Assembly: GCF_000472905.1 (NCBI RefSeq)
Contig: NZ_AXAR01000016.1
Span: forward strand, 1-64,000
Length of the DNA: 64,000 nt
Direction of reading: 5' to 3'
Source: Alicyclobacillus pomorum DSM 14955
GTDB taxonomy: Bacteria; Bacillota; Bacilli; Alicyclobacillales; Alicyclobacillaceae
Positions 2,048-51,370 of the stretch are shown here, one piece after another. Position numbers and translations under genes: made by a program. Under the pieces are notes generated by a model. That model was not told the DNA's origin. It did no database searches and saw nothing but the letters and a program-made list of their open reading frames with translations. The stretch's first letter is position 1, and each line of letters opens with the position of its first letter.

Positions 2048-2155
2048 AATCTCACTGTTACAGTAGACCAATACCGAGACTAAGTTGACGTAGCGGCAAA
2101 GCCGAGTGCAACAAGGACCCCTTCGCAGGAAGAGGTCCTTCGTCCCATTGGGTAC

Positions 2156-2707
2156 TCACTGATTCAATAACTTCAGGAACTCCCGCATGAATCCTGGAAG
2201 ATCTGGCCATGCGTGGGCCGACACCAGATTGCCGTCGACGTGGAGCGACTGGTGTACATAGGTGGCTCCCATGCCCTCCACCGTTGGCTTACATGCAATG
2301 TACGCCGTAAGCGACCTTCCACTGAGTGCATCGCGGACCGCTTCGAGCACCTGGACGGCGTGACAAATCGCCCCGACCGGCTTCCCTGCCTCGAAGAAGT
2401 GACGCACAATGCGAGGCACATCCTCGTTCAATCGAATATACTCCGGCGCCCTTCCACCAGGAATCAAGAGACCATCGTACTCTTCTGGTTTGACGTCTGC
2501 AAAAGCAACGTGTGACTCTAGTAGATACCCCGGTTTTTCAGTGTACGTTTCCCATCCGACGAAGTCATGCACCACGGTGTTCAACTTTTTCACGGAAGGG
2601 GAAGCCAGGACAGCCTCGATATTTTCCTCCAGCAACCGATAATAAGGGTAAAACACCTCGAGCGCCTCTACCGCGTCTCCAGTCAGAATCAGTACTTTCT
2701 TACTCAT
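2156..2707 (-). CDS. DJ-1/PfpI family protein
   Basis: A 183-residue single-domain class I glutamine amidotransferase-like protein. The nucleophile elbow GAICHA places the reactive Cys at about residue 114, followed by His. A conserved acidic residue lies in DAVEALEVFYP, and LLIPGGRAPEYIR is typical of PfpI. Family members are intracellular proteases, glyoxalase/deglycase-type enzymes or stress chaperones; sequence does not decide between these. AAGGAGGG precedes the ATG. The gene sits among envelope and stress-type small genes on the same strand. Confidence 0.85.
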   Translation of the reverse strand: MSKKVLILTGDAVEALEVFYPYYRLLEENIEAVLASPSVKKLNTVVHDFVGWETYTEKPGYLLESHVAFADVKPEEYDGLLIPGGRAPEYIRLNEDVPRIVRHFFEAGKPVGAICHAVQVLEAVRDALSGRSLTAYIACKPTVEGMGATYVHQSLHVDGNLVSAHAWPDLPGFMREFLKLLNQ

Positions 2708-2760
2708 GAAACATCCCTCCTTATGCTAGCGAGCAGACTCGATGCCGCATCTTCGCATTC

Positions 2761-2862
2761 CTACGACCTTCGCCACCACCACATGCCACATAAAACGAAC
2801 CCAACAATGCCGATGATGGTCATCGCATACAGAAACGTGTTGGCTGCGCTATCCGAAATCAT
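2761..2862 (-). CDS. Small single-span membrane protein (33 aa), hypothetical
   Basis: The ATG at 2862 follows a strong GGGGGAG at a normal distance, which decides the start over the longer upstream frame. The product is one hydrophobic helix (TFLYAMTIIGIVGFVLCGMW, about residues 9-28) ending in WWWRRS, a positively charged inside anchor. No family is recognised. It lies between the PfpI gene and the YkuD gene on the same strand. Confidence 0.5.
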   Translation of the reverse strand: MISDSAANTFLYAMTIIGIVGFVLCGMWWWRRS

Positions 2863-2985
2863 ACGGTCTCCCCCCAAGTGGTGGTGACAGGTGTGAAAGA
2901 TGTCATCATGTACACGGTATATGGTACAACATTTCGATCCAGGATTAAACACTCATTGTCTCACAATTCGATATAGACACCGTCG

Positions 2986-3324
2986 TCACTGCCGGATGGT
3001 GACGTGCGTTCCGATAGGAACGGTGTTCGCCAAGTACGTGACATCCTCGTTGTACATCCGGACACACCCGTGTGATACTTGTTTGCCGATAGAAGAAGGA
3101 TTGTTGGTTCCGTGGATTCCGTAATGGGGTTTTGACAAACCAAGCCAGTATACTCCAAAGGGGCCACCAGGGTTGGGTTGCTTATTCATGATGGTGTACT
3201 CTCCAATCGGCGTCTCGGTGAGCATCTTCCCAATCCCGACCGGAAACGTCCGCACTACTCTATCGTCATCCAGCAAATGTAGTTTTCGGTCCGACACATC
3301 GACGATAATTCTATACCTTGGCAT
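2986..3324 (-). CDS. YkuD-type L,D-transpeptidase, minimal
   Basis: A 112-residue protein made of a YkuD catalytic domain alone. The signature is complete: H71 in IHGTN and S84-H85-G86-C87-x-R89 in VSHGCVRM, with Cys87 as nucleophile. The start [18 protein letters not shown] is the usual first strands of the domain. Such enzymes make 3-3 peptide cross-links in peptidoglycan or attach proteins to it. There is no signal peptide or LysM domain, unlike longer family members. GGAGG precedes the ATG. B. subtilis has similar short YkuD proteins linked to spores; that role here is inference. Confidence 0.88.
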
Positions 3325-3603
3325 CGTTCATCGCCTCCACTACACTGTATGCCAAATGTCACCTCCATCCACTGGTCGTCCACTCCTCGGCGGCGAAGCA
3401 CCGAATGACCATCCAAGGACTCTCCTGCAACGCATCAAAACGTTACTTGAGGCCGCGCACTTGCTACAGCTGCCGTGCACAGAAAAAATCACAGGTGGTG
3501 GTCATCCTGTGATCTCGGTGCATTACTTCAAGGGAACGACCGTTTCGCCGACCTGATTTCGTCGTGGTGAATCGGCGTCCTGTCGTTGATCCCTGTTCGT
3601 GAG
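3325..3603. other. Intergenic region with an 8-bp inverted repeat
   Basis: No convincing gene. ATCACAGG (3488-3495) and CCTGTGAT (3506-3513) form a perfect inverted repeat with a 10-base loop and no T tract on the minus strand, so it reads better as a protein-binding site or RNA hairpin than as a terminator. Confidence 0.4.
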
Positions 3604-4008
3604 TTACACATGTTCCGCAGAGCGGACTGGTTCAAATCGTTCAAAGATGTGCTCGTGAAGTTTCACAGGTAATGGTGGTAGATATCCCAACGTCACAGAG
3701 GAAGAAGCCCAATCCATAATCGCTTCATATGTCGAGTCTTCTTGGATGCCGCCCAACCAGATTTGTTCGTTCGCAGTCATAATGGCAACGACGTTGACGA
3801 GATCACATGGCCCCAAGCAACCGCTAATCGTCAATTGAACGTGTGGCTTTAACTTTCGCTTTTTCCACTGGTCCTTCAGCCACTCGATTGGAACAGGAGG
3901 TTTTCCTCTTTCGGTGTGTCCACAGCAACATCCAGAACAGATAAATATTTGAGCCAGCACCTGTCGTTTTGTGGTCTGTTGAAGTGCAGGTTGAGCCAAC
4001 GATTCCAT
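3604..4008 (-). CDS. Thioredoxin-like [2Fe-2S] ferredoxin-domain protein
   Basis: A 134-residue protein with IFICSGCCCGHTERGKPPVP (Cys24, 27, 28, 29) and SGCLGPCDLVNV (Cys64, Cys68), the spaced Cys pattern of thioredoxin-like 2Fe-2S ferredoxins. Related proteins (CbiW type) occur with cobalamin/cobalt genes in Bacillota. The extra Cys residues in C-x2-CCC could bind metal. It is the last gene of the cobalt/nitrile island, 66 bases after the Ni/Co transporter, which suggests a part in metal handling; that is inference from context. GGAGGTGA precedes the ATG by a normal spacing. Confidence 0.65.
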   Translation of the reverse strand: MESLAQPALQQTTKRQVLAQIFICSGCCCGHTERGKPPVPIEWLKDQWKKRKLKPHVQLTISGCLGPCDLVNVVAIMTANEQIWLGGIQEDSTYEAIMDWASSSVTLGYLPPLPVKLHEHIFERFEPVRSAEHV

Positions 4009-4074
4009 ACCATCACCTCCATGATGTAGTAAAGCAGTGGACGATTGATTGTATTTGTGCGTTAATTCCTGAAA

Positions 4075-4878
4075 TTATTGCTGATCCGTGATCCATGGCT
4101 GGTCTTTTCTTTTCGAATATAGTGCCACGAGATAACAGCCAATCAAGAACAGAAACGCTACAATACCTACGGTCTCAAAGTTCAGTTGCACTGAAGGAGT
4201 GAATATCGTAATTGCTTCATAACTTGAAACTCCGTACGCAAGAATCACAATGACCCATCCCATAAGTCTCGAAGCAGACTGGCCTAGTTGGCCAGAATGG
4301 CTGACCATTCGATACGTAACCAATGAATCGATGGTATCCGTGGTCATCATTCCCACCATGAAGACCAGTCCTAAAATCAATGGCATATAGCTGACTGAAT
4401 CACCACCTGCTGCAATCGCCCAAACAGAAGTTTGGCTCACTGTGTCTGCCGCCATCGCAAACAGACCACCAAGAAAGATGATGACAATCGGATTCGTTGT
4501 TTCCTTAGCAAACCTCGGAATGAACTTTCCTTTGATTCCACGAATCTGAAAATCATCCGCTTTCGACTTTGAGTTGAGGAGGTTATACACATTCAACGTG
4601 CCAATGAGGAATAACGAAATGATGGATACCCATGTCGTGATTGTATCGAAGTAATCGGGAAACTTGAAATTATGGGCAAACATTCCTAAAACAACAGCCA
4701 CACCGGCTACGACGAATCCATGTCCAAACGAAAACAGCGTTCCTACCCAACGTGCAATTGGACTACCCACACGCCAATTATAACGGGTCTGACCATCAAT
4801 ATAGGCTAGATGATCTGCATCCAGTCCATGACGAAGCCCCAATGTAAGTACGAGAAATATAAGCGATACATTAAGCAT
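4075..4878 (-). CDS. NiCoT-family Ni2+/Co2+ transporter (HoxN/NixA/NhlF type)
   Basis: The protein has the NiCoT signature GLRHGLDADHLAYID in TM2 (H-x4-D-H metal motif), FSFGHGFVVAG (counterpart of the F-S-L-G-H-S motif) and GLFAMAADTVSQTSVWA (counterpart of the L-G-x-D-T-A-T-E motif). Seven to eight hydrophobic segments are visible. It imports Co2+ or Ni2+ through the cytoplasmic membrane. Lying after the cobalt-type nitrile hydratase genes, it is most simply an NhlF-like cobalt importer feeding that enzyme. At about 267 residues it is shorter than most members (about 330-350). ATG at 4878 is chosen because AAGGGTGG lies 8-9 bases before it; GTG at 4890 would sit on that site. Confidence 0.88.
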   Translation of the reverse strand: MLNVSLIFLVLTLGLRHGLDADHLAYIDGQTRYNWRVGSPIARWVGTLFSFGHGFVVAGVAVVLGMFAHNFKFPDYFDTITTWVSIISLFLIGTLNVYNLLNSKSKADDFQIRGIKGKFIPRFAKETTNPIVIIFLGGLFAMAADTVSQTSVWAIAAGGDSVSYMPLILGLVFMVGMMTTDTIDSLVTYRMVSHSGQLGQSASRLMGWVIVILAYGVSSYEAITIFTPSVQLNFETVGIVAFLFLIGCYLVALYSKRKDQPWITDQQ

Positions 4879-5007
4879 TCTACCATCCACCCTTCAATGA
4901 GCTCGCATTAAGGTGAATTTGAAACAATCACGAACCTTGCATCAAAGTCATCACCATGCGGGCGACGTTAGCTTACCGTTTCAACCACACTATTTTTGTT
5001 TTTTCTG

Positions 5008-43648: not shown

Positions 43649-43903
43649 ATGTCTGAAAAACGCCATGTCCCAACGTTTAAGTTATACCTATACGGTGAGA
43701 GTGAAGCCTTTGAAGGCCCCGTGGTCTCCCCTACGAAGGACGAAGTCGCAGTCGATATGTGCAATCTGCATGAGATTCTAAAGGCTCACAACGCACTTCT
43801 GGTCTATGCCAGAAGGTGGGTGTACGTGCCTTTGCATTCCGTCTCCCGTGTAGAGCGCGGCGCCAGTCGCTTTTCCCTCCCCTGGCCGCTCGTCGACCAA
43901 TGA
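43649..43903 (+). CDS. Hypothetical protein (84 aa), lone plus-strand gene
   Basis: ATG at 43649 follows GGAGGCGA at a good distance and decides the start over the upstream frame. The product MSEKRHVPTFKLYLYGESEA... is predicted mainly beta/alpha without membrane segment, containing ALLVYARRWVYVPLHSVSRVE. No family is recognised. It is the only plus-strand gene between lexA and the right edge gene, lying between miaB and the spore ligase cluster. Confidence 0.55.
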   Translation: MSEKRHVPTFKLYLYGESEAFEGPVVSPTKDEVAVDMCNLHEILKAHNALLVYARRWVYVPLHSVSRVERGASRFSLPWPLVDQ

Positions 43904-44000: not shown

Positions 44001-45347
44001 TCACAAGCTCGGTCTCCTTCGAACGGCTCGCTGCTTTCTCCTCATCTTGGCGGTCGCCGTCTGAGCGACGGCCGACGCCGGACGCAATTCATCCAGGTGA
44101 GCCAGAATCCCCTGTAGAGACTTGCGGCGGATCTCGGGCTCATCGAACTTCATCGGCTTTGAATTTGCTTCAAAAAACCAAGGGTGTCCGTATTCGTCAA
44201 CGCCAACATCCATCGACATCTCGCCTAACTCGTATTGGTAATACTCGTCAATCGCTTCGGCACAGCGAACCACCATGCGTTCAATCTCCTGGTCTACCTG
44301 TGTATCATCCGCCCCAAACTGCTGGGTGAGGACTTGCACAGCGTGCGCGATGGATCCACCGTTTGGAACATGCGTGGTGATGGCGTTGGCCCCCGCCACA
44401 CGAACCCCTTTCCCAACCACCACCCAGCGCTGGTCTCGCTTCTGCAGTAAAACCCGGAAATCGCACGGCCGTTGGTTCCACTCAATGAGCGGTATGGCGG
44501 ACTGGATCACATACTGGCTGACCAGGCGGTGTTGCTCTACGAGCGCCCATAGACTGCGCGGGCTGTCCGCGACGTACGTTTGGCAGTGAGCGTTCTTCAA
44601 GACCTTTACCACGTAGTCAGCACCACACACTTCTACGCGAATCATGCCGTGGCCAATGCTGCCGCCCGTGGGCTTCAAATACACCGCTGGATGCCGTCGC
44701 AGCATTCGGTACAACGACTCCGCACTCAAGGATTCATGGGTTTCCGGCAGATACTCGTGCAAGTTCGCCGCCCGAATGATGCGATAGATGGTGGCTTTGT
44801 TGAAATAGCCTGGGTTGAACAGCGGGATGCCGAATCCGTGAATAATGGTTTTGGCCGTGCGCGTCGTCTCGCATCGTTCCAGGTTGCGTTTGGGAATGCG
44901 GTTGTACATGGCCTCAGGCCTCGGACAGGGCAGCGGTATCCATTGCCGATTCCCGCTGCGGACATAGCCTTGCCACAATTCATTGCGGTTGACATGATCT
45001 GTCGGAATCACGTAGACAAAGCTGTTTCGCAATCGAGCCGTCTTCATGATGTCGCGGAAATTGGATCTCGCGCCGACAAATGACGACTTGCCGGAACCCG
45101 CGAGTATGGCATAGATAGGGCCCGCAACCCATTCGCCGCCACCATCACGCGTTAAACCGACTCGATGACGGAAAATCACTTGCCCTTCTGGTACCGAACC
45201 AACGAGAGGCACCCGTAGATTCGAGACTTTCACGTCTCCACCGGCGGTCTCGAGCACACTGGATAGCTCCTGCGGGGCAAGGACGTACAGCATCATCTCT
45301 GACCGACGTTGCACCCACACCAGTTCACCGGTCCATGACCCACTCAC
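44001..45347 (-). CDS. YheC/YheD-family ATP-grasp protein (endospore coat-associated)
   Basis: About 448 residues. The C-terminal two thirds is an ATP-grasp domain: AVYLKPTGGSIGHGMIRVE (ATP-binding Lys, glycine-rich loop), WNQRPCDFRVLLQKRDQRW, and ELGEMSMDVGVDEYGHPWFFEANSKP with the Mg2+-binding Glu-x-Asn. The N-terminal part has the YheC fold. B. subtilis YheC/YheD act in spore coat build-up; ATP-grasp enzymes join a carboxylate to an amine. GTG at 45347 behind GGAGGGGG is chosen. Last gene of a four-gene run. Confidence 0.85.
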   Translation of the reverse strand: MSGSWTGELVWVQRRSEMMLYVLAPQELSSVLETAGGDVKVSNLRVPLVGSVPEGQVIFRHRVGLTRDGGGEWVAGPIYAILAGSGKSSFVGARSNFRDIMKTARLRNSFVYVIPTDHVNRNELWQGYVRSGNRQWIPLPCPRPEAMYNRIPKRNLERCETTRTAKTIIHGFGIPLFNPGYFNKATIYRIIRAANLHEYLPETHESLSAESLYRMLRRHPAVYLKPTGGSIGHGMIRVEVCGADYVVKVLKNAHCQTYVADSPRSLWALVEQHRLVSQYVIQSAIPLIEWNQRPCDFRVLLQKRDQRWVVVGKGVRVAGANAITTHVPNGGSIAHAVQVLTQQFGADDTQVDQEIERMVVRCAEAIDEYYQYELGEMSMDVGVDEYGHPWFFEANSKPMKFDEPEIRRKSLQGILAHLDELRPASAVAQTATAKMRRKQRAVRRRPSL

Positions 45348-45382
45348 GACAACACCCCCTCCAATCTCGCCCACATTCGTCG

Positions 45383-46855
45383 CTACGCCCGTGCACGAGC
45401 CGCACGGCGTTGCACGCGTCGCACCGACGACTTCCGCTGCCCGTGTAGGGGAATTCCCCACAGTGTTCGAATATCCACTGATTCATCCCACGTTTGACCC
45501 TGACGAATCATTTCAAACAAGGGGTCAATGTAATTCTTGTAGCGTTCATAGGCAGTCAATCCGCTCAAGGCCTCGAAGTTGCGTTCCACAATCGGTTTCA
45601 GGATTTCGTGTCCACCGTTAAAAAAAGCGAATTGCAAGCGTTCATCGTACAAATCTACGATAGGCAACTCGCGATGGTGAACTGCCACCACGTATGCGAG
45701 ACAAAACGCCGCTACCGTAATGTCTGGGCTCACGATAAAACTGCCCGGCGTCCGATATTCAAATCCACCGTAATCCTTATGGCGAACATCTCCAAGAAAT
45801 CCATAACGCGGCCTCCGCAGCCGTGCAGTTCGAGGATCTTCCACCATCATCAGCGGCAGCCCGAGGTAATTGTCGAGCACTTTTACAAATCGACTGGAGA
45901 ACGGCACGCTTGAGAAGTGGATGTGCCCACCTGTGCAGTAGCGTTTGAACGGCATGCTACCTGCACGCCATTCCACTTGTGCTCGGTCAATCTTCCGCGT
46001 GGCCTCCATCATCGTGTCGCGCAGGTTCGCCATTAATCCGAGCGGCGAAGCATCCGGTTCTGGCCGTAACTCCATCAGAGGGAGTCGCTGTCCATCGAAC
46101 TGCAAACTTCGGTCATCGCACCCGACGCGTCCCTTACGACCGAAATAATTGCTGGCTAGGACCATCTTGCCCACCGGATTTCGCAGCATGAGTTCCATGT
46201 CGGCACCAAGCAAAAAGGCACTTGTGCCCGTCTCCGCAACCCTGTCCTCTCGGGCCATGAAGTCTTCCACGGCGCGGGCGTAGAGGTCAAGCATTCGCCC
46301 ATGCAGAACCGGCGAGGCCGTGACATCGAGGACGTACAGCACCCCTTGCTGCGCCATACCAATGCTGACCATACCATGGTCAAGCCCCAACGCGTGCAAC
46401 ACTCGCGACGCGAGTCGAACAGCGCGCACGGTCACTCGGTCGTCATCCAGCGGCACTTCGCGGAACGAGTCCTGAACACGTTGGATGCGTTGATTGATCC
46501 ACACCTGATTGCCATCGCAGCGGAAGCACGTCAGCGGGGTAAGGTCGAACATCGGAATCCGGTACTGCCGTAACAATCGAGCGTCTTCGCTCTGCCCCCT
46601 GTCTTTCGTCCAGACACGAACTCCAATCCGCCGCAGAAAGCGGGCCATGGCGCCCCTGGAAGCCGTGCGCTGGATTGCGTTTTGCGGATTGAATACCGTT
46701 CCTTGATGAGGGTCCGCCTCTGGGCTACCTCCATAGCGTATGACAACGTCGCCACTTCCAATATTGGAACTGGAGACGTACGGCTTGAGTATTGGGACCC
46801 GTTTTAGCAGGCGCCGTGCGGAAGGCTGCCCGGCATGCAGCAGATAGTAGGTCAT
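45383..46855 (-). CDS. Amidoligase-domain protein (COOH-NH2 ligase type 2)
   Basis: 490 residues. The C-terminal half resembles the putative amidoligase family (glutamine synthetase/GCS-like fold): FLLGADMELMLRNPVGKMVLAS, MELRPEPDASPLGLM, FKRYCTGGHIHFSS and GGFEYRTPGSF, rich in the Glu/His/Arg residues that bind ATP and acid in this fold. The N-terminal half shows a weaker ATP-grasp-like pattern (SRVLHALGLDHGMVSIG, VLDVTASP). It probably forms amide or isopeptide bonds; the substrates are unknown. It lies 35 bases from the next ATP-grasp gene. AAAGGAGATG precedes the ATG. Confidence 0.75.
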   Translation of the reverse strand: MTYYLLHAGQPSARRLLKRVPILKPYVSSSNIGSGDVVIRYGGSPEADPHQGTVFNPQNAIQRTASRGAMARFLRRIGVRVWTKDRGQSEDARLLRQYRIPMFDLTPLTCFRCDGNQVWINQRIQRVQDSFREVPLDDDRVTVRAVRLASRVLHALGLDHGMVSIGMAQQGVLYVLDVTASPVLHGRMLDLYARAVEDFMAREDRVAETGTSAFLLGADMELMLRNPVGKMVLASNYFGRKGRVGCDDRSLQFDGQRLPLMELRPEPDASPLGLMANLRDTMMEATRKIDRAQVEWRAGSMPFKRYCTGGHIHFSSVPFSSRFVKVLDNYLGLPLMMVEDPRTARLRRPRYGFLGDVRHKDYGGFEYRTPGSFIVSPDITVAAFCLAYVVAVHHRELPIVDLYDERLQFAFFNGGHEILKPIVERNFEALSGLTAYERYKNYIDPLFEMIRQGQTWDESVDIRTLWGIPLHGQRKSSVRRVQRRAARARA

Positions 46856-46883
46856 GAGCTACATCTCCTTTCAGGGTCCGTCG

Positions 46884-48260
46884 TCATTTCATGTTGGCTA
46901 AACGAAATGCGTATTCCATGGGACGCGAAAAGGCAAGGTCAACAATCTCTTGTCGTCCCTTTTCGGTGGTTGGCGACTTCCAGGGCTTTGAGTTGACCTC
47001 AATAATCCAGACGTGCCCTTTGTCGTCAAGGCCGACATCAATCCCCAGCTCACCAAACATTTTCCCGGACTGCTCCTCAATCACTTCTGTTACGAGACTC
47101 GATACCTTGCGGATGAGACGACGGCAACGGATGCGCTTATCTTCGCTGGCGTAGAGCTCTTTTAACACCGTATCCACCAGCAAGGCCTCGCCGCCGCTGC
47201 TGAGATTGGACGTAAAATCACCGGGTTGCGCAACGCGAGCAAACATTTTCGTCCGCCTCCACTCTCCTCGACCATCTCGTTGCAGGACGATACGGACATC
47301 GAATGGGCGGTTGTGATACGTCGCCAGCGAAATACCCTCCTGAATCAAATACGGACGTGACCGCAAGCGGGGACGGACCGCTTCCACAACGCTTTCCAGC
47401 GTCGATACCCGTCCTGTCGACTTGCCAGTTTGTTGTTTGACTTCATACGTTAACGCCCCGTCCGGGTACCGAGCAATCCGAATGATACCCAGTCCCAGAC
47501 TTCCGTGGACCGGTTTGAGAAAAATCATAGCGTGTTGTTTCAGGAACTGAACGATGTCCGTTCCTTTTGTATATTTGACAGTTTGCGGGACGTACGGGCG
47601 CGTGCGCCGGTCTCCCGTGAGCCACTCGTGAACCTGCCATTTGTCAAAAAAACCGTCGTTGAAAATTCGGTGTGCGTAAATTTTACTCAGTCGTACGCGT
47701 TGCTCAAGATACTTGGGGTCCCGCTCCACTTTGCGGGAGATCACCTGGTCGTAAATGGCATCGGGAAATGGCAGGTCCAATACGGTCCACTGACCTGCTT
47801 CCAGCACGTACCCCTTCACCTGCTCCTTGGCAAAGTCTACGTCCTGGATGCGAAACAGGTACACCAACGCACCGAGGCGTGCCCCGGCCTCGACCATTTT
47901 TTGAAGCCCCGGCAGTTGCTTGGTGTTTTTCAGTTGTTTCTTTTTCGAATCCCACTTGGGATTACAAAGAATGCCGATGGTCGGTCCGATGTGCAGTCCC
48001 GAAGTCGTCATCTCAGCCGATACCAAGTCCGATGACACGTTCAGCATCACCTGTCTCGATAGACCATCACTCAACCACACCGTGTTCGCGGGAACCGCCG
48101 GGTCCAAAAAGAGGACCGCTTCAGCCGAATGCCACCCAAAGAAACAACGGTATCTGCGCCCTTCCGTCGCATTCAGGAGTTGCGAGGAGCTCGGGTGAAC
48201 TCGAATCAGCGGGTTCGGGCTGTGAAACACAGCAATCCGAATCTTTTGGTCAACTCCCAT
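46884..48260 (-). CDS. YheC/YheD-family ATP-grasp protein
   Basis: 458 residues. The N-terminal YheC-type domain includes GPTIGILCNPKWD and DAIYDQVISRKVE; the ATP-grasp part has MIFLKPVHGSLGLGIIRI, NRPFDVRIVLQRDGRGEW and KMFGELGIDVGLDDKGHVWIIEVNSKPWKS. It is paralogous to the genes at 44001 and 48276. All are on one strand with gaps under 40 bases. Product localisation to the developing spore coat is inferred from the family and from cotE upstream. Confidence 0.87.
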   Translation of the reverse strand: MGVDQKIRIAVFHSPNPLIRVHPSSSQLLNATEGRRYRCFFGWHSAEAVLFLDPAVPANTVWLSDGLSRQVMLNVSSDLVSAEMTTSGLHIGPTIGILCNPKWDSKKKQLKNTKQLPGLQKMVEAGARLGALVYLFRIQDVDFAKEQVKGYVLEAGQWTVLDLPFPDAIYDQVISRKVERDPKYLEQRVRLSKIYAHRIFNDGFFDKWQVHEWLTGDRRTRPYVPQTVKYTKGTDIVQFLKQHAMIFLKPVHGSLGLGIIRIARYPDGALTYEVKQQTGKSTGRVSTLESVVEAVRPRLRSRPYLIQEGISLATYHNRPFDVRIVLQRDGRGEWRRTKMFARVAQPGDFTSNLSSGGEALLVDTVLKELYASEDKRIRCRRLIRKVSSLVTEVIEEQSGKMFGELGIDVGLDDKGHVWIIEVNSKPWKSPTTEKGRQEIVDLAFSRPMEYAFRLANMK

Positions 48261-48275
48261 GTGCGGGGGCTCCTT

Positions 48276-49472
48276 TCACTGATGGGATCCAGCGGATATC
48301 CCGTTCGCCCTGATAGCATATTCAACGAGACAATGGAGTGACATTTCGCGGATATTCCCTGGCAGAGATCTCAGCATCCGCCTACCCGGCGTCGGATTGA
48401 CCTCGAACACCACAACCTCCCCTGAGTTTCGCAGTGCGAGATCAATTCCAACCTCAGCGAAAGGCCCATACAGGCGCTGTAATCGCTTCGCAACCGCCAG
48501 TGCTACCCTATCCACAGCCGCAATGACTTCGTCGATGTGGTGCGGGGAGACGTGCGCGACCGCCTGTTCCGCCGGAACCGCACGACCTCCTGTGTGAATG
48601 TTGGTCGTCACGGACTTGACATCCCCTATCCTCGCCACACGCGCCATCACCTCCATGTCGTGCGTACATTGGATGAGCCACCGAAAATCAAACGGACGCC
48701 CCTCTCGCGTACGTGGAACGCGAATGGTCTCCTGGACAAGACAGCGTTGAAATCCCGTTGCCCGCCAAAATCGGTCGAAGTCAGCAGCAGTAGGAAGTTC
48801 TCGCTCCACAACCTCTACATCGTGCAGATTCGACCTTCCACTGCGTTTCACGCGCCGCTCCCAGATTGCCAATGGCATCTGGTTCACTAGGTACAAGCGG
48901 AAGATGGACACGCCCCGGGCTCCGTTCAGAGGTTTTACGTAAATGTCACCGTATTGATGAAGAAGGCGGTGAACCTCGTCCTTCGATTGCACGAAGTGCG
49001 TTCCGGGCAGGTGATCCCGAAGTTGTGCGGACTCCGACATCTTGCGGTAGAACACCCATTTGTTACTGCAGGTGAGCGGTAGAGTATGTAAACACCCTTC
49101 CGCGTTGAAGTAATTCAAATCCTCGGTGACGATGCGGGGGGCCACGTTCCGAGAGGTACCTGACCTCCGCAACACGACACCGGGCAAGGAGACGTCGGCG
49201 GACTGCCACCGCTTGGTCGCGGAATGCCACCGCCAGCCCCGTCCAGTTCGACGGTACCCGGGTGGTAGCACCGCCACGTCCATTCCTCGTTCGTCGGCAT
49301 ACGCCGCCAGTTCTGCAAACATCCTCGTTTGTTCTCCGAACATCCGCTTGGCATCGGGCCTGCACTCGGCATAAAGGCCAAGCGAAGGTCTGTTCCCCTG
49401 CCGGACCGCCAACTTTGAAACGTTCAACTTGAGCCCAGTTGTGCTGCGTGGTACGCTATCCCGCGTCCCCAT
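48276..49472 (-). CDS. YheC/YheD-family ATP-grasp protein
   Basis: 398 residues. ATP-grasp motifs: DIYVKPLNGARGVSIFRL, GRPFDFRWLIQCTHDMEVMARVARIG and FAEVGIDLALRNSGEVVVFEVNPTPGRRML. The N-terminal part (SLGLYAECRPDAKRMFGEQTRMFAEL) differs from the other two paralogues, so the substrate may differ. First gene of the ligase run, 18 bases after a terminator that closes cotE; AAGGAGTGG precedes the ATG. A separate promoter was not identified in the short gap, so partial read-through from cotE is possible. Confidence 0.85.
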   Translation of the reverse strand: MGTRDSVPRSTTGLKLNVSKLAVRQGNRPSLGLYAECRPDAKRMFGEQTRMFAELAAYADERGMDVAVLPPGYRRTGRGWRWHSATKRWQSADVSLPGVVLRRSGTSRNVAPRIVTEDLNYFNAEGCLHTLPLTCSNKWVFYRKMSESAQLRDHLPGTHFVQSKDEVHRLLHQYGDIYVKPLNGARGVSIFRLYLVNQMPLAIWERRVKRSGRSNLHDVEVVERELPTAADFDRFWRATGFQRCLVQETIRVPRTREGRPFDFRWLIQCTHDMEVMARVARIGDVKSVTTNIHTGGRAVPAEQAVAHVSPHHIDEVIAAVDRVALAVAKRLQRLYGPFAEVGIDLALRNSGEVVVFEVNPTPGRRMLRSLPGNIREMSLHCLVEYAIRANGISAGSHQ

Positions 49473-49489: not shown

Positions 49490-49515
49490 AACAAAAACGG
49501 GGCGTTTCCGCCCCG
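49490..49515 (-). terminator. Intrinsic terminator after cotE
   Basis: CGGGGCG (49498-49504) and CGCCCCG (49509-49515) form the stem; on the minus strand TTTTTGTTGC follows. Confidence 0.85.
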
Positions 49516-49553: not shown

Positions 49554-50093
49554 TTAGTCTTCAATCTCCACTTCTTCCAGCAGATCTTCCTCGTCCTCGA
49601 TGAAGTCTTCATCCTTCTTGTCGATAACGTCACACGTAACGACACACAGTTTCGTACGACCGAGCACTTCTACGCCGAGTTCCTTCTCCACGCGCACCAA
49701 GATTTCAGAACCATTGCCGGTGACGGTGGCGTCGAGACAATTCGGACTTTGCAACACGCGAATATCCACTTCACGCGAGTCGCGGTCGCAGTTCGTATCC
49801 AGGTCCCGAAGCGCAATTTGCTCCACGTAAGACACGGTGTCCTTGGCGACTGCAGTTTCGGAGTTCCCGTTGTACGAGTACCACACGTTGACGTCGAAGC
49901 GCCCGTGCACCTCCACGTAGTCGCCCACCAATTCCGCTTCGAACGAGTGGTTCATGACCCAGCAACCACCAATTGTCGTTGGCCGATTTGCCGGGCGAAT
50001 GGTGTATGTGGTCTGCGAGTACTTGCTGCCACGGCCGCAAACCGCGTGGGCCATGATTTCGCGGTAACTCAGATCTTTGTTTGAGAGCACCAT
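49554..50093 (-). CDS. cotE: Outer spore coat morphogenetic protein CotE
   Basis: 179 residues, the family length (181 in B. subtilis). YREIMAHAVCGRGSKYSQTTYTI and GCWVMNHSFEAELVGDYVEVHGRFDVNVWYSYN are conserved CotE segments; the tail is highly acidic (DEDFIEDEEDLLEEVEIED). CotE directs outer coat assembly. In B. subtilis it lies between ricA and mutS; here it is displaced beyond miaB next to coat-type ligase genes. ATG at 50093 behind GAGGAGG is the start. Confidence 0.95.
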   Translation of the reverse strand: MVLSNKDLSYREIMAHAVCGRGSKYSQTTYTIRPANRPTTIGGCWVMNHSFEAELVGDYVEVHGRFDVNVWYSYNGNSETAVAKDTVSYVEQIALRDLDTNCDRDSREVDIRVLQSPNCLDATVTGNGSEILVRVEKELGVEVLGRTKLCVVTCDVIDKKDEDFIEDEEDLLEEVEIED

Positions 50094-50340
50094 GCGGCTA
50101 CCTCCTCTTGAACTCACAGGCCCTGGGCAGTTTCGCGCGCCTGTGCACCCGCCCAGCCCTGTTGTACTGCATGAGTATGCGTGGCGGCGTTCATTGGTGC
50201 AGTGCGCGCAACACCCCTGTATGGGGTCCTGCCCTACCAGCCGCCCATCTCGTTACGCAACATCGTATGCATTTGTCACCGCACGTGTCATGGAGAGAAC
50301 CGACACATGGAAAAATCGGGCTTGACCGCGGCTTGGTACA
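50094..50340. other. Upstream region of cotE
   Basis: No gene is supported. It should hold the sporulation promoter(s) of cotE; no sigma-E or sigma-K promoter could be assigned with confidence. Confidence 0.4.
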
Positions 50341-50422: not shown

Positions 50423-51370
50423 TTACGAAAGCGTGCGTTGCAAAAATGATTCGAAGTTTTGAAACAGAATCTTCTCTGCCAGTGCTGATCCGTAACGTTT
50501 CCGAATGAGATCCGCGAACCGCCGGTAGTCTCCAGCATCGGACAAACCCGGCATCGGATGAGACGTTCCATCAAAGTCCGAACCAAATCCGACATAGTCT
50601 TCGCCGCCCAACTGGAGCACGTGGTCCAGGTGCAACAACAACTGATCTACTGTCACGTCTGCCGGCTTCCCCACAAAACTCCCCTCAAACACCAACCCCA
50701 TCCATCCTTCGCGGCGAAACAATTCGCGAATGACGTCGTCCGTCAGATTGCGGGGGTGAGGATGGATTGAGCGACAGTTCGCGTGAGATGCCATCAATGG
50801 CCCCGATGTGCGGTCAAACAGATCTGCAATACCCCGGTCTGACAAATGCGACAGATCTACCCACATGCCAAGTCGGTGAGCCTCACGCACGACAGCCAGT
50901 CCATGCGCGGTCAGCCCCCCTCCCCGCGGTTCCCGGCAACCGTCGCAAAGCTCGTTCGCATCATTCCAAGTCAAACCAATGCCCCGAACGCCGAGTCGGT
51001 GCAGAGTGCGTAACATCTCAGGTTGTCCACGGAGGCATCCGCCCCCTTCCAAAGACAACAACCCCGCCATTACGCCCTCGCGCCGCGCACCATGCAAGTC
51101 CGCCAGATCCCGAACCGGGCGCAACACAGCGTCGCGAACGACGCGTTCGTAAAACAGATCTATCTGCCGCAGCACAATCTCCAACTGGTACTGCGAGGGT
51201 AAGCTCGGCGACACGAACAAGGCAAAAACCTGAGTTGCTATGCCGGCACTCATTAATCGTTCAGCACTGGCCTGTAACGGAGAGGGACCGTAAAAGTCGC
51301 AACCTTCGCGTTCCATCCGATACAGCACGTCAACGTGAGCATCCGCAATCCAGGAAGTGTGCTCGCTCAT
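50423..51370 (-). CDS. M19-family membrane dipeptidase (renal dipeptidase type)
   Basis: 315 residues with the M19 metal sites: ADAHVDVLYRM (H-x-D), LSLEGGGCL (bridging Glu), WVDLSHLSD, ASHANCRSIHPHPRNLTDDVI (His ligands) and VGFGSDFDG. Hydrolyses dipeptides, possibly including D-amino acid or cell-wall derived ones. There is no signal peptide, so a cytosolic site is likely. ATG overlaps the spoVS stop (ATGA), so the two are translated together. Role in sporulation is inference from this coupling. Confidence 0.9.
   Translation of the reverse strand: MSEHTSWIADAHVDVLYRMEREGCDFYGPSPLQASAERLMSAGIATQVFALFVSPSLPSQYQLEIVLRQIDLFYERVVRDAVLRPVRDLADLHGARREGVMAGLLSLEGGGCLRGQPEMLRTLHRLGVRGIGLTWNDANELCDGCREPRGGGLTAHGLAVVREAHRLGMWVDLSHLSDRGIADLFDRTSGPLMASHANCRSIHPHPRNLTDDVIRELFRREGWMGLVFEGSFVGKPADVTVDQLLLHLDHVLQLGGEDYVGFGSDFDGTSHPMPGLSDAGDYRRFADLIRKRYGSALAEKILFQNFESFLQRTLS

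Follow-up and report, generated by a model that had tools for sequence, protein, structure and literature searches.

Directly downstream of the gene for the spore-coat morphogen CotE, Alicyclobacillus pomorum DSM 14955 carries a minus-strand run of four ligase genes, three encoding YheC/D ATP-grasp ligases and one a glutamine synthetase (GS)-like amidoligase (PF14395), at positions 44001-49472 of the window, by which we mean the whole 64,000-nucleotide stretch analysed here (contig NZ_AXAR01000016.1). Comparison across genomes suggests that the amidoligase is a long-standing partner of CotE, apparently lost by the best-studied spore-former, and a lysine in the acidic CotE tail accompanies it. 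We favour, with confidence falling a little short of even, a dedicated system that makes amide bonds on the tails of CotE or of other coat proteins. An earlier note, made from the letters of this DNA, had pointed to two classes of amide-bond-forming enzymes beside a coat morphogen, and the four ligases next to cotE, in a conserved gene order, bear this out. CotE organises the outer spore coat and has been studied mostly in Bacillus subtilis.

Genomically, the amidoligase was found in 40 of the 41 genomes of a sample of relatives (own genome included), the closest named relative found being Alicyclobacillus contaminans, whose amidoligase is 73% identical. Among 80 named loci, the best of 535 relatives, CotE lies in the stretch read in 77 and the tallied genes stand on one strand in all 80, so that the synteny of amidoligase and YheC/D genes, which the earlier note had proposed surveying, turns out to be a conserved, cotE-linked order. 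CotE directly precedes the amidoligase without YheC/D genes in 34 of these loci, as in relatives from Paenibacillus, Thermoactinomyces and Brevibacillus (in the Paenibacillus and Thermoactinomyces relatives the amidoligase stands alone between cotE and mutS); most other loci have the order cotE-YheC/D-YheC/D-amidoligase-YheC/D(-YheC/D), and in Alicyclobacillales the amidoligase is joined by three or four YheC/D genes. All five genomes of the cotE-amidoligase type that were checked (G062, G106, G440, G449, G454) have four or five YheC/D genes in a row elsewhere. A chance arrangement is ruled out by the conserved gene order and by the pairing across samples.

That pairing is tight in Bacilli. 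Among 151 sampled genomes of this class, 115 have CotE and 94 the amidoligase, which never occurs without CotE (p 2.7e-20, uncorrected for kinship), with the two genes less than 8 kb apart in 92 (less than 2 kb in 61), 484 kb apart in one and on separate contigs in one. The 21 CotE-bearing Bacilli without amidoligase include 13 on a MutS tree, where they form one clade, and a CotE-core tree likewise unites in a single clade the 20 amidoligase-negative Bacilli whose tail is readable; a PF14395 profile search of the B. subtilis control genome gave no match. Of the 398 genomes in a phylum sample, 53 carry the amidoligase (in one case as a weak fragment), 52 have a CotE match (48 of these exceeding the cut-off) and 31 have both (p 1.7e-18, likewise uncorrected), the two genes lying within ~7 kb of each other in 28, within 27 kb in G351 and G394 and on different contigs in G399. 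SpoIVA is present in 52 of the 53 amidoligase genomes, the exception being a 61% complete genome. CotE matches were obtained in 39 sampled genomes outside Bacilli, often beside an amidoligase; they are weaker than in Bacilli and mostly over the curated cut-off. According to PMC3533761, no CotE was seen in clostridia, while SafA and a protein printed as "SpoIVD", which we take for SpoVID, are missing from A. acidocaldarius and K. tusciae.

The A. pomorum CotE (49554-50093, minus strand; PF10628, E 1.4e-58), whose likely start, as read from the sequence, is the ATG at 50093-50091 behind AGGAGG and not the GTG at 50117, ends in the acidic tail DKKDEDFIEDEEDLLEEVEIED (49557-49622, minus strand), in which the codons at 49619-49614 specify K159 and K160 of 179 residues. 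A lysine within tail residues 3-22 is present in all 113 distinct readable CotE tails of amidoligase-positive Bacilli versus 3 of the 20 distinct tails of the amidoligase-negative Bacilli clade, distinct tails being counted because many loci stem from the same genomes. Set aside from the 113 were L188, in which cotE is split by an inserted element and the downstream piece carries the lysine, and L324, whose tail is frameshifted and shows the lysine in another frame; L287 has no readable tail, and L317 and L322 were counted as amidoligase-positive, the gene lying elsewhere in their genomes. The same position rule applied to residues 3-26 gives 149 of 150 proteins (L324 counting as positive) versus 5 of 20, and a first definition of the tail by local acidity, which cut many tails wrongly, had given 140/181 versus 8/29 across all lineages. 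Exactly one lysine occurs in 61 of the 113 positive tails and arginine within the interval in 3. Aspartate and glutamate average 40% of the negative and 43% of the positive Bacilli tails; tryptophan is commoner in the negative ones (15/20 versus 11/113), some of which are serine-rich. Outside Bacilli, a tail lysine is found in 20 of 22 amidoligase-positive loci (two repeats left out) versus one of five negative loci, 13 of the 20 by the same rule and 7, from one family with two CotE copies, by the motif LK(Y/C)(D/E)ED, which in the second copy stands further along the tail. Evolutionarily, the 116 rows of the CotE-core tree divide into 89 with lysine and enzyme, 21 with neither, 4 with the lysine only and 2 with the enzyme only. 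Since YheC/D genes persist in amidoligase-negative genomes (five of the five checked), the tail lysine goes with the amidoligase rather than with the YheC/D ligases.

Structurally, the amidoligase (45383-46855, minus strand; PF14395, E 1.7e-99) is predicted to combine a RimK-like pseudo-ATP-grasp domain (residues 1-205) with a carboxylate-amine ligase domain (211-468). The family match spans residues 216-468 at 332.7 bits and takes in positions 1-254 of the 254-position profile, and the GS-type residues D219, E221, E262, R264, H311, H313, E366 and R368 are invariant in 58 relatives. In a model built with 58 sequences (predicted local distance difference test score, pLDDT, 92.7), the closest folds to residues 211-468 are of the YbdK type (1tt4_A, Z 17.5, and 1r8g_A, Z 17.2; root-mean-square deviation (rmsd) 3.2, 241 aligned), with further matches to plant glutamate-cysteine ligase (2gwc_B, Z 16.1), Dop (5lrt, Z 15.5) and PafA (4bjr_A, Z 15.1, rmsd 3.5, 248 aligned); residues 1-205 match RimK (7qys_E, Z 16.1, rmsd 3.7, 195 of 292 aligned). 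This RimK-like domain is ~90 residues short compared with RimK, and the glutamate and asparagine of the RimK metal site are replaced by aspartate and threonine, residues not conserved across the amidoligase family. We read it as a pseudo-ATP-grasp domain without the central ATP-binding part, the gap being placed from the sequence, and behind it the enzyme has a complete active site of the GS/glutamate-cysteine synthetase (GCS) type.

The YheC/D ligases A1 (44001-45461; PF14398, E 1.8e-65), A2 (46884-48260; E 3.4e-79) and A3 (48276-49472; E 6.1e-48), all on the minus strand, score 221, 266 and 164 bits against a curated cut-off of 26.8 and are mutually 24-30% identical where alignable. The spacing among the first three ligase genes is 15 and 28 nt; A1 as listed overlaps the amidoligase by 79 nt, its start is uncertain, and an internal methionine near ~45296 is the more plausible start than 45461. 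The catalytic residues K207, K249, Q307, D321, R323, D408, E421 and N423 (A2 numbering) are present in all three proteins, which rules out inactive ATP-grasp paralogues, an outcome the earlier note had named as counting against its proposal. In fold comparisons, residues 90-458 of the A2 model (pLDDT 93.4) resemble RimK (5zct_C, Z 22.5, rmsd 2.9, 273 aligned), ArgX (Z 22.4) and TTLL6 (Z 19.5), and residues 1-90 form an extra N-terminal region outside all fold matches. A FastTree phylogeny of 89 rows puts A1 and A2 in supported groups (26 and 24 rows) that include copies from distant Bacillota, whereas the support for A3 does not reach beyond its order (8 rows), the support values of this quick method being less trustworthy. 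The separate tree groups at the three places, two of them with distant Bacillota copies, fit distinct steps, in keeping with the idea of the earlier note, put forward from the differences among the paralogues, that they act sequentially.

Elsewhere, the PF14395 and PF14398 domains occur in one chain in L119 (7067-9886, 940 aa) and L146 (7467-10433, 989 aa); five more open frames of 872-961 aa with the amidoligase domain (G365:C8, G508:C1, G518:C20, G503:C210 and G566:C19) are possible further cases, and a scan of viral contigs returned 14 distant relatives. By profile search, the A. pomorum genome itself has 12 YheC/D matches and one amidoligase. Six further YheC/D matches lie within 18 kb on contig C7 (20.8-38.2 kb; L168, L169), away from the amidoligase, most of them in short open frames of 250-280 aa.

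With regard to expression, two AC-N17-CATA promoter-like elements stand upstream of cotE on the minus strand, a distal one at 50261-50288 (AC at 50288) and a proximal one at 50171-50198 (AC at 50198). Within 250 nt before cotE, AC-N16-18-CATA is found in 21 of 26 Alicyclobacillaceae and near loci versus 2.2 in dinucleotide shuffles, and in 11/12 loci of a second group of the order, 4/4 Tumebacillus and 15/15 others versus 1.1, 0.9 and 2.1; this looser pattern was chosen after conserved CATA sites had been seen and is not an independent prediction. The scan covered 57 upstream regions with a start that the script could place, drawn from the 80 named loci and the window. By the consensus sequences of the sigma factors, the strict sigma-K form ending in TA occurs in 0, 4 and 3 loci of the last three groups, and the tested sigma-E form is not enriched in any of the four. 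An initial scan, in which the patterns were stricter and the starts approximate, had found the sigma-K form in 7/77 loci and the sigma-E form in 3/77, against 11 and 7 of 1560 random windows. The AC-N16-18-CATA sites would fit mother-cell sporulation control, without proving it. In the 81 nt that separate cotE from the ligases there is a terminator-like hairpin, CGGGGCG-GAAA-CGCCCCG followed by T5 (49493-49515, minus strand), and no CATA, so read-through from cotE would be the simplest route to expression of the ligases; a crude script places a hairpin with a T run behind it downstream of cotE in 16 of the 26 Alicyclobacillaceae and near loci.

Functionally, we posit that the system is made in the mother cell, where read-through past the terminator behind cotE would yield much scaffold and little enzyme. 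The RimK-like domain would dock an acidic protein tail as RimK docks its substrate, and the ligase domain would activate a carboxylate, by family precedent the gamma-carboxylate of glutamate, and pass it to the epsilon-amine of the CotE tail lysine, so as to form an epsilon-(gamma-glutamyl)lysine bond, either inside one CotE molecule or linking two, or to attach an amino-acid tag. The YheC/D ligases, for their part, may add amino acids to the acidic tails of CotE or other coat proteins. The earlier note had seen no substrate nearby except perhaps an 84-aa gene; the candidate next door is CotE itself, with a lysine that tracks the amidoligase, although, taken alone, the CotE lysine as acceptor is a possibility that we hold more loosely than that of a coat-tail system in general. 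In its boldest form, which we regard as leaning towards the unlikely, the proposal would be that a PafA-like, ATP-dependent isopeptide ligase welds the coat in many endospore formers beyond the Bacillus lineage, its dead RimK domain gripping the CotE tail while an activated glutamate carboxylate is joined to the lysine, and that RimK/TTLL-like YheC/Ds elongate the tails, as in tubulin. The enzyme, and after it the lysine, would have disappeared from the Bacillus lineage, whose model organism would thus have been unable to show this step.

Several observations weigh against this proposal. The correlation between lysine and amidoligase is deep and thin in independent events: the amidoligase changes once within Bacilli on the MutS tree, and the CotE-core tree holds three enzyme changes and two to three independent contrasts (1.6 concordant on average and none discordant), fewer than a sign test needs. 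Three amidoligase-negative Bacilli keep the tail lysine; outside Bacilli, the amidoligase-positive L113 and L145 have none, and the negative L285 has one. Another contact could account for the lysine. None of the 26 Alicyclobacillaceae and near loci has the strict sigma-K pattern. Finally, no CotE match was obtained in 22 of the 53 phylum-sample genomes that carry the amidoligase, and CotE is therefore not the sole substrate of the amidoligase family.

Those 22 genomes, all of which have a YheC/D match in the stretch read, also speak for a different account, in which the ligases make a free product (a non-ribosomal peptide, a gamma-glutamyl compound or a polyamino acid) that is stored in the spore surface or attached to it, and CotE is a co-transcribed neighbour. 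The closest folds include the small-molecule ligases YbdK, glutamate-cysteine ligase, glutathione synthetase and D-Ala-D-Ala ligase, and a GNAT gene follows the cluster in ten loci; a free product, however, predicts neither the tight cotE pairing in Bacilli, which extends to loci without adjacent YheC/D genes, nor a tail lysine accompanying the amidoligase, and we consider it unlikely. Of the two products that the earlier note had offered, a peptide-like polymer and modified coat proteins, the tie to the coat stands on the conserved gene order, and no positive evidence emerged for a free polymer. A little less probable again, to our minds, is that the enzymes act on other coat proteins than CotE, modifying or cross-linking them, with CotE as the recruiting platform and the tail lysine as part of the docking site. 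The CotE tail is a known docking site in that, by the account in PMC4618286, the charge of the CotE C-terminus decides CotH assembly in B. subtilis, and PMC7911427 places YheD among the coat proteins, as a shell that surrounds the spore. Against this reading, arginine, which a salt bridge would usually accept, is scarce in the tail interval (the 3 of 113 given above), and no other recurrent structural gene appears in the clusters among open reading frames (ORFs) of at least 80 aa. CotH was also considered as a reason for loss of the tail lysine and set aside, being present in 23 of the 94 amidoligase-positive and 8 of the 21 negative CotE-bearing Bacilli, with no clear association.

That the amidoligase stands in for the transglutaminase Tgl, cross-linking the coat where a lineage has no Tgl, is very improbable in our estimate. 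Tgl is found in 0 of the 12 sampled genomes of the window's family, and in 10 of the 21 CotE-bearing Bacilli without amidoligase versus 23 of the 94 with it (Fisher p 0.059), but the two enzymes are not complementary, 23 genomes having both and 11 CotE-bearing genomes neither, and strict replacement is rejected by the same 23 of 94. Both a small-molecule product and the use of other coat proteins as substrates are live alternatives to modification of CotE. If amide bonds are made on coat-protein tails, as we favour, the choice of model organism may have hidden a step of coat modification, since 94 of the 115 CotE-bearing sampled Bacilli have the amidoligase and the B. subtilis control has none. 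The cluster would also offer a role for the unexplained coat proteins YheC and YheD, and it could answer how coats are stabilised in the 12 sampled genomes of the window's family, which lack both Tgl and CotH. The prediction is that a defined lysine in the acidic tail of CotE carries an amide bond.

Around the cluster, A1 is followed by a gap with a small opposite-strand gene and then by miaB, ymcA, mutS and mutL. An M19 dipeptidase gene, spoVS, ymdB and rny lie on the upstream side of cotE (mutS, mutL, spoVS, ymdB and rny being named from sequence and not by family scan). The small gene is the 84-aa "orphan" of the earlier note (43649-43903, plus strand), and it proves to be a real conserved gene, kept in Alicyclobacillus between A1 and miaB, with relatives 41-59% identical in 19 loci (repeats of one genome included). 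As a substrate it was rejected, standing on the opposite strand and having no Pfam match, and it is probably no member of the cluster. It is also the only candidate for a graspetide-type precursor found among ORFs of at least 60 aa in the window and at least 80 aa in relatives. The M19 membrane-dipeptidase-family gene (50423-51370, minus strand) lies upstream of cotE here and in most of the loci of the order that were read, not in Tumebacillus, and is a possible peptidase partner of the cluster. The GNAT-family gene, perhaps a third kind of amide-forming enzyme, recurs in L130 (3852-4343), L129, L132, L137, L144, L147, L159, L160, L162 and L164, its assignment coming from a Pfam scan of L130 only. 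An ORF resembling succinylglutamate desuccinylase/M99 carboxypeptidases, assigned by a Pfam scan of L114 only, lies near amidoligases in 19 loci (L114, 8945-9889, and related ORFs), many of them in genomes without CotE.

The cotE gene itself varies in form. Two cotE-like genes stand in a row in some genomes outside Bacilli (L134, L136, L138, L139, L140, L142, L143, L113, L286), and in seven tandem-cotE genomes the first copy is almost tailless and the second has a long acidic tail. Inserted elements split cotE in L188 (~2105-4952; Alicyclobacillus suci) and in L357, L358, L359 and L360. The insertion site differs between A. suci and the other four genomes, which belong to one family and have the split after YSYNNNT. 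In these four the pieces lie ~4, 11 and 17 kb apart, with one case across contigs, and L360 shows the 5' piece only. The elements carry apparent large serine recombinases (by eye, no family scan) and are probably skin-like elements excised in sporulation.

The Pfam families of the parts, and YheC/YheD as coat-related genes, were already known. The literature searched gave no pairing of amidoligase with CotE, and in it we found neither the constancy of that partnership nor the disappearance of the amidoligase from one Bacilli clade, its combination of RimK-like and PafA-like domains or the lysine that covaries with it; Iyer et al. 2009, on these ligase families, may mention the neighbourhood. 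Among known systems, PafA and Dop share the carboxylate-amine ligase fold, and the acceptor of PafA is a protein lysine; unlike them, the amidoligase has a RimK-like domain in front and is paired with CotE and sporulation. YbdK and glutamate-cysteine ligase (GCS2-type), the best fold matches of the ligase domain at only 9-16% identity, are free-glutamate ligases without that RimK-like domain. RimK, LysX/ArgX and TTLL/TTL, which add amino acids to acidic protein tails or carriers, provide the best folds for A2 (Z 19-22) and for the amidoligase N-terminus; the amidoligase copy differs from RimK in its shortness and lost metal-site residues, and the YheC/Ds in their extra N-terminal region. B. 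subtilis YheC and YheD fall into the same Pfam family as A1-A3 (a control match) and are described in PMC517825 as sigma-E genes raised by SpoIIID. They occur there without a PF14395 amidoligase, unlike in the window. Tgl, a cysteine enzyme working without ATP, belongs to another family than the amidoligase and is absent from the sampled genomes of the window's family. The bonds that it forms in the coat, as PMC6490927 reports, are epsilon-(gamma-glutamyl)lysyl bonds, the same bond that we propose for the amidoligase.

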